Assembly (NCBI GenBank): GCA_027533425.1
Contig: JAPZUD010000006.1
Coordinates: 124,001 to 188,000 of the forward strand
Length of the DNA: 64,000 bases
From: Beijerinckiaceae bacterium
GTDB taxonomy: Bacteria > Pseudomonadota > Alphaproteobacteria > Rhizobiales > Beijerinckiaceae
Direction of reading: 5' to 3'
The notes under the pieces are model-generated. The model saw only the letters and a program-made list of their open reading frames with translations. It searched no databases and was not told the DNA's origin. Positions within the stretch are counted from its first letter, which is position 1. Every line of letters begins with the position of its first letter. Shown piece by piece: positions 29,949 to 46,625 of the stretch. The translations under genes were made by a program, and so were the position numbers.

Positions 29949-31028
29949 TCAAGGCCGTCGCTGTGATGTTTTCAGCGCAGGCAGGGGCGCCTCGTGATCC
30001 AGCCAGGTCATCTTCCGGCCCGGCTGGCGCTGGCTCTGGCACCCTTTCCGCTGGCGTTCGGCCTGCGCAAAGAGGCGGCGGAGGGGTTGGTCCTGCCCCG
30101 CGCCGACCAGATCGATCCGGTCGATGAAACAGGCGAAGCTGACCCGGTCTGCCGGGCGCTCCTTCGTGCCGCAATACCAGCCGGCCAGAACCAGGCCAGA
30201 TGTGTCGTTCCGGCGGAAGGCGAGGCAAGCCATGCGGCTGCTCTCCGAGGCGAGGTGGGCCTCGGCGACCTCCATCGAGCCGAACTTGGTGATGACCTCC
30301 TGCGCTGCCTGCAGGCGCTCGATCGACACGCCGATTTCCGCGGCACGGCGCGCAAGGTCGGGGAAGAGCGGCCGGGTTGTGGGAAGTCCGTTTTCGTAGC
30401 GCTCGATGACGAGATGGATTGCGGGCCGCTGCAACGAATTCGGCCTCGGCTGGCTGTTGGTCCAGAGGAAGCTGTCCTGCCGGGTCTGCCGGTCTTTCGT
30501 CGCCACCCGATGGACAAGATCCGCCTGCTCGATTTCCGGCGCCTCGACATGATAGACGGCGAAGGGCTTGCGAACGGGCGTCCAGACATCCCGGGCCGGC
30601 GGCGCAAGCACCACCCGGAAAGGCTCGGGTGCAGGCTGGCCAGGCAGGACCTGTTGGGAAAGATCCGGTGCGGCCGGATCCTTCGCAGGCTCGCCCGCGG
30701 TGGTGGGTCCGGCCGGTGCCGGGCTCGATGCCACAGCCGGCGCGATCGCGCCCGGCTCCCGCTCGGGCAGGATCATCGCGGCCAGCCAGGCCGAGAAGAC
30801 AAGCGAGAGGACGATCGTGATTGTGGTGGCAGCCCGATGGTTCCGGGCGGCCCGGGAGAACATCAGCGAGAACCTGGCTGCCAGCGCAACGAGGTTCAGC
30901 CAGCAGGCCGAGGCAATGGCTGCGAGCCGGGAGGCGCGGCGACGTTGGCCCAGCGCCTGTTCGACGGTCATGCTGGGTACCGGCGGAAAATCGGCTGCCT
31001 CTGCAAGCAGCCTTGCCATGCCTCTCAT
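29949..31028 (-). CDS. Single-pass membrane protein with periplasmic C-terminal region, unknown
   Basis: A 359-residue protein. The N-terminal ~70 residues are basic and cytoplasmic, followed by one transmembrane helix (ATTITIVLSLVFSAWLAAMI, about residues 67-86), an Ala/Pro-rich linker, and about 230 residues of mixed sequence with scattered cysteines (RMACLAFRR, GWYCGTKE, SFACFIDR). AAGGGG precedes the ATG. I recognise no family. It is convergent with nothing and ends about 90 bases before the small exported-protein start, so the two could share a transcript. Confidence 0.65.
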   Translation of the reverse strand: MRGMARLLAEAADFPPVPSMTVEQALGQRRRASRLAAIASACWLNLVALAARFSLMFSRAARNHRAATTITIVLSLVFSAWLAAMILPEREPGAIAPAVASSPAPAGPTTAGEPAKDPAAPDLSQQVLPGQPAPEPFRVVLAPPARDVWTPVRKPFAVYHVEAPEIEQADLVHRVATKDRQTRQDSFLWTNSQPRPNSLQRPAIHLVIERYENGLPTTRPLFPDLARRAAEIGVSIERLQAAQEVITKFGSMEVAEAHLASESSRMACLAFRRNDTSGLVLAGWYCGTKERPADRVSFACFIDRIDLVGAGQDQPLRRLFAQAERQRKGCQSQRQPGRKMTWLDHEAPLPALKTSQRRP

Positions 31029-31171: not shown

Positions 31172-31200
31172 TTGACTTTCCGGCCCTTTGCGTGTTTCTG
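31172..31200 (+). promoter_or_regulatory. Candidate promoter of the asd leader
   Basis: TTGACT (31172-31177), 17-base spacer, TTTCTG (31195-31200). The -35 is good and the -10 is weak. A start near 31207 would place the leader-peptide SD (31223-31229) about 16 bases into the RNA. Confidence 0.4.
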
Positions 31201-31236
31201 CTGGCGCATCGGCATTCCAGCCGGGGAAAGCGTTCG

Positions 31237-31305
31237 ATGTCGGCCCTGATGACGAAAAAACCGACGACGACAACCACGACCGCCAAAGGCGGCTTCGTGC
31301 GCTGA
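31237..31305 (+). CDS. Threonine-rich leader peptide of asd (candidate attenuator peptide)
   Basis: A 22-codon open frame, ATG at 31237 and TGA at 31303-31305, preceded by GGGGAAAG at good spacing. The core is MTKKPTTTTTTAKGG with six consecutive Thr codons (acg acg aca acc acg acc) and a seventh just before. The next gene, asd, makes aspartate semialdehyde, the precursor of threonine. A short peptide loaded with codons for the end product, followed by competing hairpins, is the hallmark of ribosome-mediated attenuation, as in the enterobacterial thr operon. I know of no described case for asd in this group. Confidence 0.6.
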   Translation: MSALMTKKPTTTTTTAKGGFVR

Positions 31306-31319
31306 CGCTTGTCCTCGCT

Positions 31320-31384
31320 CTCGGGCCCTCCCCCGGCGGGGGATAGGGCGAGACCCGGCCACCGGGTCCACCACCCCGGGGGAG
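31320..31384 (+). promoter_or_regulatory. Competing RNA hairpins between Thr leader peptide and asd
   Basis: Hairpin A is GCCCTCCCCC (31325-31334) with GGGGG and AGGGC (31338-31349), a 10-bp stem with a 2-base bulge, extended by CTC/GAG at 31320-31322 and 31350-31352. Hairpin B is GACCCGG/CCGGGTC (31352-31368). CTCCCCCGG (31328-31336) can instead pair perfectly with CCGGGGGAG (31376-31384), which excludes A. Such mutually exclusive folds are expected of an attenuator. There is no U-tract, so control could be at translation or by Rho. Confidence 0.5.
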
Positions 31385-31410
31385 ATCTCGATCAGAACAG
31401 GAAGTCCATC

Positions 31411-32445
31411 ATGGGTTACAAGGTCGCAATCGCGGGTGCCACCGGCAATGTGGGCCGGGAAATGCTCAATATTCTGGCGGAACGCGCCTTTCCGGTCTCG
31501 GAAGTCGTCGCGCTCGCCTCCAGCCGGTCAATCGGCAAGGAGGTCTCCTTCGGCGACAGGACGCTGAAGGTCCAGTCGCTCGAGCATTACGATTTCTCCG
31601 ACACGGATATCTGCCTGATGTCCGCCGGCGGCGAAACCTCGAAGGCCTGGTCGCCGAGGATCGGCGCGCAGGGCTGCGTCGTCATCGATAACTCCTCGGC
31701 CTGGCGCTACGATTCGGATGTCCCGCTGATCGTGCCGGAAGTGAATGCCGAGGCTGTCCGCGGCTTCACCAAGAAGAACATCATCGCCAATCCCAACTGC
31801 TCCACCGCCCAGCTCGTTGTTGCGCTGAAGCCGCTGCATGACCGTTTCGGCATCAAGCGGGTGGTCGTCTCGACCTACCAGTCGGTGTCCGGCGCCGGCA
31901 AGGACGGCATGGACGAACTCTTTGACCAGACCCGCGCCATCTTCTCGGCCGGCGAGCCGAAGACCAAGAAGTTCACCAAGCGGATCGCCTTCAACGTCAT
32001 CCCCCATATCGACGTCTTCATGGAGGATGGCTTCACGAAGGAAGAATGGAAGATGACGGCCGAGACCAAGAAGATTCTCGACCCGAAGATCAAGCTCACC
32101 GCCACCTGCGTGCGCGTGCCGGTCTTCGTCGGGCATTCCGAGGCGGTGAACATCGAATGCGAGAAGCCGGTCACGGCCGAGGAAGCGCGCAACATCCTGC
32201 GCGCCGCGCCGGGCGTGCTGGTGATCGACAAGCGCGAACCGGGCGGCTACATCACGCCGCATGAGGCGGCGGGCGAGGACGCGACCTACATCTCCCGCAT
32301 CCGTGAGGACATCACGGTCGAGAACGGCCTCGCTTTCTGGTGCGTCTCTGACAATCTCCGCAAGGGCGCCGCGCTGAACGCGATCCAGATCGCGGAATGC
32401 CTGATCAACCGCAAGCTGATCCAGCCCCGCAGCAAGGCGGCCTGA
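31411..32445 (+). CDS. asd: Aspartate-semialdehyde dehydrogenase
   Basis: Reduces aspartyl phosphate to aspartate semialdehyde, the branch point to Lys/DAP, Met, Thr and Ile. The 344 residues carry GATGNVGREML for NADP binding, the catalytic Cys130 in NPNCSTAQL, and GYITPHEAAGEDATYISRIR. AGGAAG precedes the ATG at 31411. A Thr-rich leader peptide and hairpins lie just upstream, and a strong terminator follows, so asd is probably a monocistronic unit with its own control. Confidence 0.96.
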   Translation: MGYKVAIAGATGNVGREMLNILAERAFPVSEVVALASSRSIGKEVSFGDRTLKVQSLEHYDFSDTDICLMSAGGETSKAWSPRIGAQGCVVIDNSSAWRYDSDVPLIVPEVNAEAVRGFTKKNIIANPNCSTAQLVVALKPLHDRFGIKRVVVSTYQSVSGAGKDGMDELFDQTRAIFSAGEPKTKKFTKRIAFNVIPHIDVFMEDGFTKEEWKMTAETKKILDPKIKLTATCVRVPVFVGHSEAVNIECEKPVTAEEARNILRAAPGVLVIDKREPGGYITPHEAAGEDATYISRIREDITVENGLAFWCVSDNLRKGAALNAIQIAECLINRKLIQPRSKAA

Positions 32446-32470: not shown

Positions 32471-32500
32471 CGGCCCGCCCTCGCGCGGGCCGTTTTTTTT
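32471..32500 (+). terminator. Rho-independent terminator after asd
   Basis: An 8-bp GC stem CGGCCCGC/GCGGGCCG with a 6-base loop, followed by eight T's (32493-32500), 25 bases after the asd stop. It is the most canonical terminator in the window besides the sRNA's. Confidence 0.92.
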
Positions 32501-44838: not shown

Positions 44839-44923
44839 TGTCACGACGGTTCGCCCTCGTGACATGCCCTCCTTGGGCGTTTCCTCCCTAGACTTTCAGG
44901 CCGCTTCGTGCGGCCTTTTTTTT
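44839..44923 (+). ncRNA. mmgR: Small RNA, probable alpha-r8 (MmgR-like) family
   Basis: An ~85-nt independent transcription unit. Hairpin 1: TGTCACGA/TCGTGACA (44839-44846, 44857-44864), a perfect 8-bp stem. Hairpin 2: GCCC/GGGC (44866-44869, 44875-44878). Then unpaired TTTCCTCCCT (44880-44889), then the terminator AGGCCGC-TTCGT-GCGGCCT with eight T's (44898-44923). The ten-base pyrimidine motif, overall size and order match what I recall of the alphaproteobacterial alpha-r8 family, whose Sinorhizobium member MmgR limits polyhydroxybutyrate accumulation. The exposed CCUCCC is suited to base-pairing with SD sequences. Family assignment is from memory. Confidence 0.75.
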
Positions 44924-45019
44924 GTCCGGAATCAGGAATTCCGGCATTTCTGCAGGGCTGCCCTTGGCTCGGATGCCCTGTTCGGATCGTTTCGCCACCG
45001 GATCAGGCAGCGCGCGCCC

Positions 45020-46550: not shown

Positions 46551-46625
<75 letters not shown>

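Follow-up and report, generated by a model that had tools for sequence, protein, structure and literature searches.

The asd gene in the window (the whole 64,000-nucleotide stretch of Beijerinckiaceae DNA analysed here) is preceded by a short ORF with a run of threonine codons and by an RNA strand that can pair with either of two downstream segments. Judged from sequence comparison, this region likely controls asd by ribosome-mediated attenuation in response to charged tRNA-Thr and, probably, charged tRNA-Lys. The original prediction had proposed a threonine attenuator at this gene. That interpretation is supported by the leader, which was found to recur across the order Hyphomicrobiales, and by the co-evolution of both of its alternative folds. 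The combination of leader and folds at this asd gene lies far above chance.

Leader ORF and codon content

The gene downstream of the leader is asd, encoding aspartate-semialdehyde dehydrogenase (positions 31411 to 32445, plus strand). In agreement with the predicted identity, it matches TIGR01296 (473.5 bits; cutoff 324.2). Its Shine-Dalgarno (SD) sequence, AGGAAG, was read from the sequence at positions 31399 to 31404. The asd start is separated by 382 nucleotides from a divergent minus-strand ORF (29949 to 31028). This ORF of 359 amino acids sits between leuB and asd and has no NCBIfam match.

The leader ORF occupies positions 31237 to 31305 of the plus strand, with its stop codon at 31303 to 31305, and encodes the 22-codon peptide MSALMTKKPTTTTTTAKGGFVR. 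It has an SD-like sequence of its own, GGGGAAAG, at positions 31223 to 31230, with 6 nucleotides between the end of the SD and the ATG. Codons 10 to 15 (31264 to 31281) are six consecutive threonine codons (ACG ACG ACG ACA ACC ACG), and codon 6 is a further threonine. Direct reading of positions 31223 to 31305 thus confirms both the ORF with its SD and the threonine run with one earlier codon. Six ACN codons in a row occur once in the 3.75-Mb genome, both strands counted, and that occurrence is the leader's threonine run. The backward control pattern occurs 9 and 2 times in the same genome. A small hairpin (CGGC-loop-GCCG, 31210 to 31223, plus strand) lies 5' of the leader SD and was recognized by eye in several relatives.

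A promoter-like sequence, TTGACTTT ... GTGTTTCTG, is located at positions 31172 to 31200 of the plus strand, with its TTGAC box 65 nucleotides 5' of the ORF start. A simple sigma-70 consensus scan gave no promoter match. Of the 64 non-redundant leaders, 49 have TTGAC between −110 and +30 relative to the leader start, compared with 5.5 expected from mononucleotide shuffling, and the boxes are mostly 45 to 110 nucleotides 5' of the ORF start. Because of this box, the transcript probably starts 5' of the leader ORF and includes it.

Conservation was assessed in the asd upstream regions of the best 80 named contigs listed and of genomes of the order Hyphomicrobiales, the latter being part of 397 genomes searched. 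A leader was counted when an ORF of 8 to 70 codons, with at least 4 threonines in any 10 residues, lay no more than 300 nucleotides from asd. Leader starts were chosen by a simple start-codon rule, and the N-terminal parts of the listed peptides may be wrong. A leader is present at 104 of 180 in-order loci and at 1 of 180 in the reverse-strand control. The refuting outcome named with the prediction, a lack of conservation of the ORF or its threonine run, was thus not observed. Raising the threshold to at least 5 threonines in 10 leaves 87 of the 180 loci, and at least 6 in 10 leaves 51, with none on the reverse strand in either case. The 180 loci include some genomes twice; 171 upstream regions are distinct, and the positives comprise 95 distinct and 64 non-redundant leaders. 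When the 171 distinct regions are sorted by amino acid at 5 in 10, threonine accounts for 80, arginine for 33, alanine for 21, and the others for at most 9 each.

At the threshold of at least 4 threonines in 10, at least one leader occurs in 22 of the 40 family codes sampled, two of which (f30 and f43) are represented solely by weakly anchored loci. The remaining 76 of the 180 loci fall below the threshold, and for some of them the reason is an upstream region that is truncated or wrongly anchored; the truncated ones, L040 and L076 among them, are scored as negatives among the 180. The asd start is weakly anchored at L109, L155, L161, L165, and L318; L109 is positive, and the negatives among these loci are unreliable. 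The threonine leader was not found in the 13 Bradyrhizobium loci examined or in the six loci of family f33 (L115 to L120).

The closest named Asd relatives, among the matches listed, are from Beijerinckiaceae and Hyphomicrobiales MAGs and from Rhabdaerophilum. Within the window's genus, the leader is present at 16 of 17 asd loci, and the seventeenth (L318) could not be anchored. A coding pattern taken from one genus member proved too narrow, as it matched 1 of the 17 genus genomes, and was rejected. At locus L004, whose Asd is 90% identical, no threonine leader ORF was found near asd, and the upstream region differs.

Family f22, which includes Mesorhizobium sp. L-8-3, reaches 4 threonines in 10 at 28 of 30 fetched loci. 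The peptide ends in KTV in 23 of these 28 leaders, and several leaders (such as L272 and L289) have six threonines and three lysines in the last 14 residues. The coding motif KTTTKTV-stop was found in 27 of 91 f22 genomes, one copy each, and all 27 copies are located just 5' of asd on the same strand. The backward control for this motif gave no occurrence in the f22 genomes.

The codon content of the leaders is not limited to threonine. In the last 18 codons of the 64 non-redundant leaders, threonine makes up 38.9% and lysine 15.0%, compared with 5.2% and 6.6% in asd. Lysine codons alternate with threonine codons, and at least one is present in the last 18 codons of all 64 leaders. The prediction of a threonine-codon sensor therefore holds with respect to threonine enrichment and is incomplete with respect to lysine, whose codons are enriched as well. 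The lysine codons of the 64 leaders are AAA in 148 cases and AAG in 22, a preference that is reversed in asd (71 AAA, 894 AAG), counted where the sequence of the 64 loci extends far enough to read asd. Threonine codons are shifted from ACC toward ACG (237 ACG and 174 ACC in the leaders, 257 and 453 in asd). This codon bias might heighten sensitivity to limitation, or it might help the RNA to stay open. The product of Asd feeds threonine, methionine, and lysine synthesis. Lysine is a probable second signal alongside threonine because that product leads to lysine as well as to threonine, and the TIGR01296 assignment places asd in the pathway of the sensed amino acids.

A comparable ORF has been described in Sinorhizobium meliloti. 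SEP5 is a short ORF with six threonine and three lysine codons near its 3' end, located in the 5'-UTR of a gene called aspartate dehydrogenase-encoding (Hadjeras et al. 2023, PMC10117765). Its translation was seen by Ribo-seq and Western blot, and it was proposed as a possible leader peptide and called conserved in Sinorhizobium only (PMC10117765). In our reading, SEP5 would be the asd leader of Sinorhizobium, although the gene name given in the passages on SEP5 differs. The f22 leaders fit its threonine and lysine pattern, several of them with the same number of both residues. They differ from it in that the passages on SEP5 describe no RNA switch, whereas the leaders described here are spread over the order and carry a co-evolving two-way fold.

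The peptide itself, rather than tRNA charging, might act, either by nascent-chain arrest or as a functional small protein. A Western blot of S. meliloti showed SPA-tagged SEP5, confined to the soluble fraction, which is in line with this reading (PMC10117765). Against it, the predicted leader peptides differ widely in length and sequence apart from threonine and lysine, and an effect of the peptide would not require the lysine codon bias of the leaders. Peptide action is accordingly considered improbable, and sensing of tRNA charging is retained as the preferred reading.

Alternative pairings in the leader RNA

Downstream of the leader ORF, two hairpins and a 9-nucleotide complement are present on the plus strand where they had been predicted. 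Hairpin 1 (P1, 31325 to 31349) pairs arm A with arm B, and hairpin 2 (P2) lies at positions 31352 to 31368. Arm A is CTCCCCCGG, at positions 31328 to 31336, and can pair instead with arm E, the purine-rich CCGGGGGAG at positions 31376 to 31384. As A is shared by both pairings, the A:E helix excludes hairpin 1, as had been claimed.

Ten fixed regions were defined in each leader by their distance from the leader stop and from the asd ATG. For any two regions, the length of the longest helix without gaps was compared with that obtained after one partner had been swapped between species. In 63 leaders (44 where the middle region, M, was used), 45 region pairs were examined in this way. The strongest pair is A-E, with 7.33 versus 6.37 after swapping (z 6.6, reached by 0 of 200 swaps). 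A-B is second (6.10 versus 5.56, z 4.4, 0 of 200), and B-M, which holds hairpin 2, is third (z 3.4, 1 of 200). All remaining pairs have z values from −2.1 to 2.4. When swaps are confined to families, A-E, A-B, and B-M are again at the top of 36 pairs, each with 0 of 300 swaps; this set contains 50 leaders (37 for M), and the family labels of named loci were assigned by hand, some of them loosely.

Family f22 gave a set of 30 leaders, of which 26 are new and 4 are shared with the 63-leader scan, and these also show co-evolution of A-E (z 3.7, 0 of 500) and A-B (z 2.7, 2 of 500). Arm A with the asd SD region gives z 3.4 (0 of 500) in the same set. The B-M co-evolution, and with it that of hairpin 2, is not repeated in these 30 leaders (z 0.6). 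The covariance check on the two alternative folds is thus positive for A:B and A:E in the 63 leaders, within families, and in f22.

The co-varying A:E helix of the window's relatives is CTCCCCCGG:CCGGGGGAG. Others are GGGATTTCCCCCG:CGGGGGAAATTCC, TTCTCTCCCTTC:GAAGGGAGAGAG, CGCTCTTTCC:GGAAAGGGCG, and ATGCTCTCCCG:TGGGAGAGCAT. In 48 of 64 leaders, the best A helix begins 18 to 24 nucleotides 3' of the leader stop; the E arm of these 48 ends 12 to 43 nucleotides before the asd ATG (26 nucleotides in the window). On the evidence of co-evolution, the two exclusive pairings of arm A look like selected features.

Three other approaches were set aside. The folding energy of the whole leader does not stand out (z −0.24 and +1.03 relative to dinucleotide shuffles). 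The energies of gapped duplexes formed by post-stop and pre-ATG sequence give a weak signal (mean z −0.92, with p ≤ 0.05 in 9 of 64) because C-rich and G-rich sequences pair anyway, and ungapped helices with partner swaps took the place of this test. A MAFFT alignment across genera misaligned the arms and was left out of the pair counts. Support for the leader RNA is conservation and covariation, not stability.

A further hairpin, P0, lies within the end of the ORF at positions 31275 to 31299 of the plus strand. The original inventory of folds, correct in its two hairpins, had missed it. P0 covaries in 16 genus sequences, where none of the 500 shuffles and none of the six slides reaches its covariation score of 0.221. 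The shares of paired cells (72.3%) and of cells changed on both sides also exceed all 500 shuffles. Five of the 10 pairs are changed on both sides, a value reached by 61 of the 500 shuffles, and the number of pair types is reached by 34 of 500. The mean z of the P0 fold is −2.19 in 40 grouped leaders (the window's family and f18), which include related sequences and were not made non-redundant, and −0.81 in 40 others. P0 might act as a pause hairpin by which polymerase and ribosome are coupled.

A pyrimidine-rich segment, X, begins within the stop codon (31304 to 31318, plus strand) and is strongly conserved in the genus. Across the 64 leaders, the first 16 nucleotides 3' of the leader stop have a C fraction of 0.48 to 0.53 and an A fraction of 0.04 to 0.05. 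X was considered as the partner in a ribosome-sensed pairing and rejected in that role. Neither X:B (z −0.2 and −0.8; 0.9 in f22) nor X:E (z −0.3 and −0.1; 1.7 in f22, 24 of 500) co-evolves. X can also pair with the leader SD region (31220 to 31234, plus strand). In the 12 genus leaders tested of 16, this pairing has a mean z of −2.33 with 8 of 12 at p ≤ 0.05, compared with 3 of 12 for the control region and 2 of 58 in other lineages. In the window's genus, it could limit re-initiation on the leader.

A chance ORF with chance complementarity in GC-rich DNA would be in keeping with the ordinary folding energy of the whole leader. It is refuted by conservation, and also faces the rarity of the threonine run, the lysine codon bias, the co-evolution of A-E and A-B, the KTTTKTV motif, and the covariation of P0. 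Chance is considered next to impossible, and a selected leader RNA is retained.

Output and sign of control

In the proposed mechanism, a ribosome supplied with plentiful threonine and lysine would reach the stop codon, melt P0, and cover X. Arm A would then pair with E close to the ribosome-binding site of asd, and initiation on asd would be poor. When either amino acid is short, the ribosome would stall on the threonine or lysine codons, and A would stay in hairpin 1. E and the asd site would be left open, and asd would be expressed. Translation initiation is the likeliest point of output, a choice held with less than even confidence. Rho-dependent termination ranks next and is less probable, and intrinsic termination is unlikely here.

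No terminator-like site was found on the plus strand between positions 30800 and 31800 in a simple scan, and no U-tract follows the hairpins. The genome does appear to use U-tract terminators, since just 3' of asd (32471 to 32500) a GC hairpin leads into a stretch of T, which makes the absence of such a terminator in the leader informative. No intrinsic terminator was found in 63 of the 64 in-order leaders, and the one candidate has a 5-base-pair stem. Allowing longer loops still gives 1 of 64. The predicted lack of a U-tract terminator is therefore upheld both in the window and across the leaders.

Outside the order, 88 asd loci (68 + 20) were examined, of which 10 reach 4 threonines in 10. 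Three of these (L196, L197, and L249) look unrelated, and seven remain. L224, L250, and L251 have a threonine/lysine leader and a GC hairpin with a U-tract by the script rule, and L220 has one with a longer loop. At these four loci, the first 16 nucleotides after the stop hold a 6- to 7-nucleotide complement to the hairpin region, and the leader ORF ends 123 to 140 nucleotides before asd. No terminator was found by the script rule at the other three (L187, L189, and L230). The four alphaproteobacterial loci apparently carry a classical asd attenuator, so the threonine/lysine leader appears to be joined to two kinds of output. They share with the in-order leaders a threonine/lysine leader before asd and a post-stop arm complementary to the next hairpin, and differ in their GC hairpin with a U-tract, as the in-order leaders have no terminator. 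Transcription attenuation of the classical kind, with its intrinsic terminator, thus appears outside the order, but with 1 of 64 in-order leaders carrying a candidate and none on the plus strand here, it is very improbable for the window. By analogy, the terminator-bearing loci suggest the usual sign of control.

The same sensor might act through Rho, with the pyrimidine-rich X and A serving as a rut-like site that is hidden by the stalled ribosome or by the choice of pairing. The 32 nucleotides 3' of the leader stop in the 64 leaders are 45 to 57% C, 17 to 25% G, and 4 to 7% A, which favors this output, as does the absence of a U-tract terminator from nearly all of them. However, both alternative folds engage A, and the choice between them does not by itself expose it. 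In addition, the window's run has its last threonine 7 codons ahead of the stop, and a ribosome that stalls at this codon leaves X uncovered; pairing with the G-rich arms B and E demands a pyrimidine bias as well. Rho output is considered rather unlikely, and the translational output remains the one preferred.

Folding with a ribosome placed at the threonine stall or at the stop was calculated for 58 leaders. On stalling, A:E is lower in 11 and higher in 5, A:B is up in 8 and down in 13, and the accessibility of the asd site is up in 11 and down in 20. In 30 f22 leaders, stalling lowers A:E in 9 and raises it in 2, raises A:B in 7 and lowers it in 2, and lowers the opening cost of the asd site in 8 and raises it in 14. 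These constrained folding runs do not settle the sign of control.

A:E is tentatively taken as the off state with a translational output. The A:E counts of both folding sets agree with it. Three observations count against this assignment: the ribosome-placed folding does not bear out the inferred sign, as the A:B counts of the 58 leaders and the asd-site values of both sets indicate; the 26 nucleotides between E and the ATG in the window are far for blocking a 30S subunit; and A lies farther away than a ribosome on the stop codon was assumed to reach.

The wider reading is that, across much of Hyphomicrobiales, the leader is a dual threonine/lysine sensor of asd whose output moved from intrinsic termination to a translational switch. 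This is put forward as a possibility, on balance doubtful. Under this dual-sensor reading, a CU-rich, anti-SD-like strand, usually 18 to 24 nucleotides after the stop, would toggle between a hairpin and the purine element, and intrinsic termination would persist outside the order.

Relation to known leaders

The thr operon attenuator of Enterobacteriaceae, thrL, has threonine and isoleucine codons before thrABC and an intrinsic terminator. Both thrL and the asd leader have runs of end-product codons before a biosynthetic gene and mutually exclusive hairpins. The asd leader differs in its threonine and lysine codons, in its lack of a terminator, and in that the shared strand is the first arm and not the middle one.

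A comparison of the leader region with the covariance models of 4227 Rfam families, which presumably include the threonine leader, T-box, and riboswitch families, gave no match at the gathering score. At E ≤ 5, whalefall-1 alone was reported (17.4 bits versus 37, minus strand). Elsewhere in the window, Rfam identified a suhB/mmgR small RNA at positions 44859 to 44930 (66 bits; gathering score 41) and a tRNA gene at positions 46551 to 46622.

Two other leader-peptide systems are known from the same bacterial class and involve other amino acids. The trp attenuator of S. meliloti, rnTrpL (with its peptide, peTrpL), is both a leaderless mRNA and an attenuator sRNA according to the passages that describe it (PMC10117765). 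An ilvB leader peptide in alphaproteobacteria is mentioned by Corbino et al. 2005 (PMC1273637), and the term asd is absent from that paper (PMC1273637). Like rnTrpL, the released asd leader RNA might also act in trans as an sRNA through its CU-rich, anti-SD-like segments. X and A resemble in this respect the aSD motifs described for alphaproteobacterial sRNAs in the relevant passages of PMC7143759. A 3' end from which such an RNA could be released is not in evidence, and action in trans, as an addition to attenuation in cis, is considered quite unlikely.

It had been stated with the prediction that no such report was known for asd in Alphaproteobacteria. This stands in that no report of a threonine/lysine leader at such a gene other than SEP5 was found in searches of the open literature, and needs correction in that SEP5 had been proposed as a leader of this kind in the passages cited (PMC10117765).

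The sensing principle is that of the textbook. What was unexpected is the breadth of the leader, its two-way covarying switch, and the differing outputs among relatives. The finding extends the range of a leader peptide that had been reported from Sinorhizobium only. If the proposed mechanism is true, a single peptide responds to two of the end products made from the aspartate branch point. This would show leader-peptide sensing of the aspartate family (threonine, lysine, methionine, and cell-wall diaminopimelate) across a large bacterial order. With related leaders that do and do not carry an intrinsic terminator, a change of output mechanism would be traceable.
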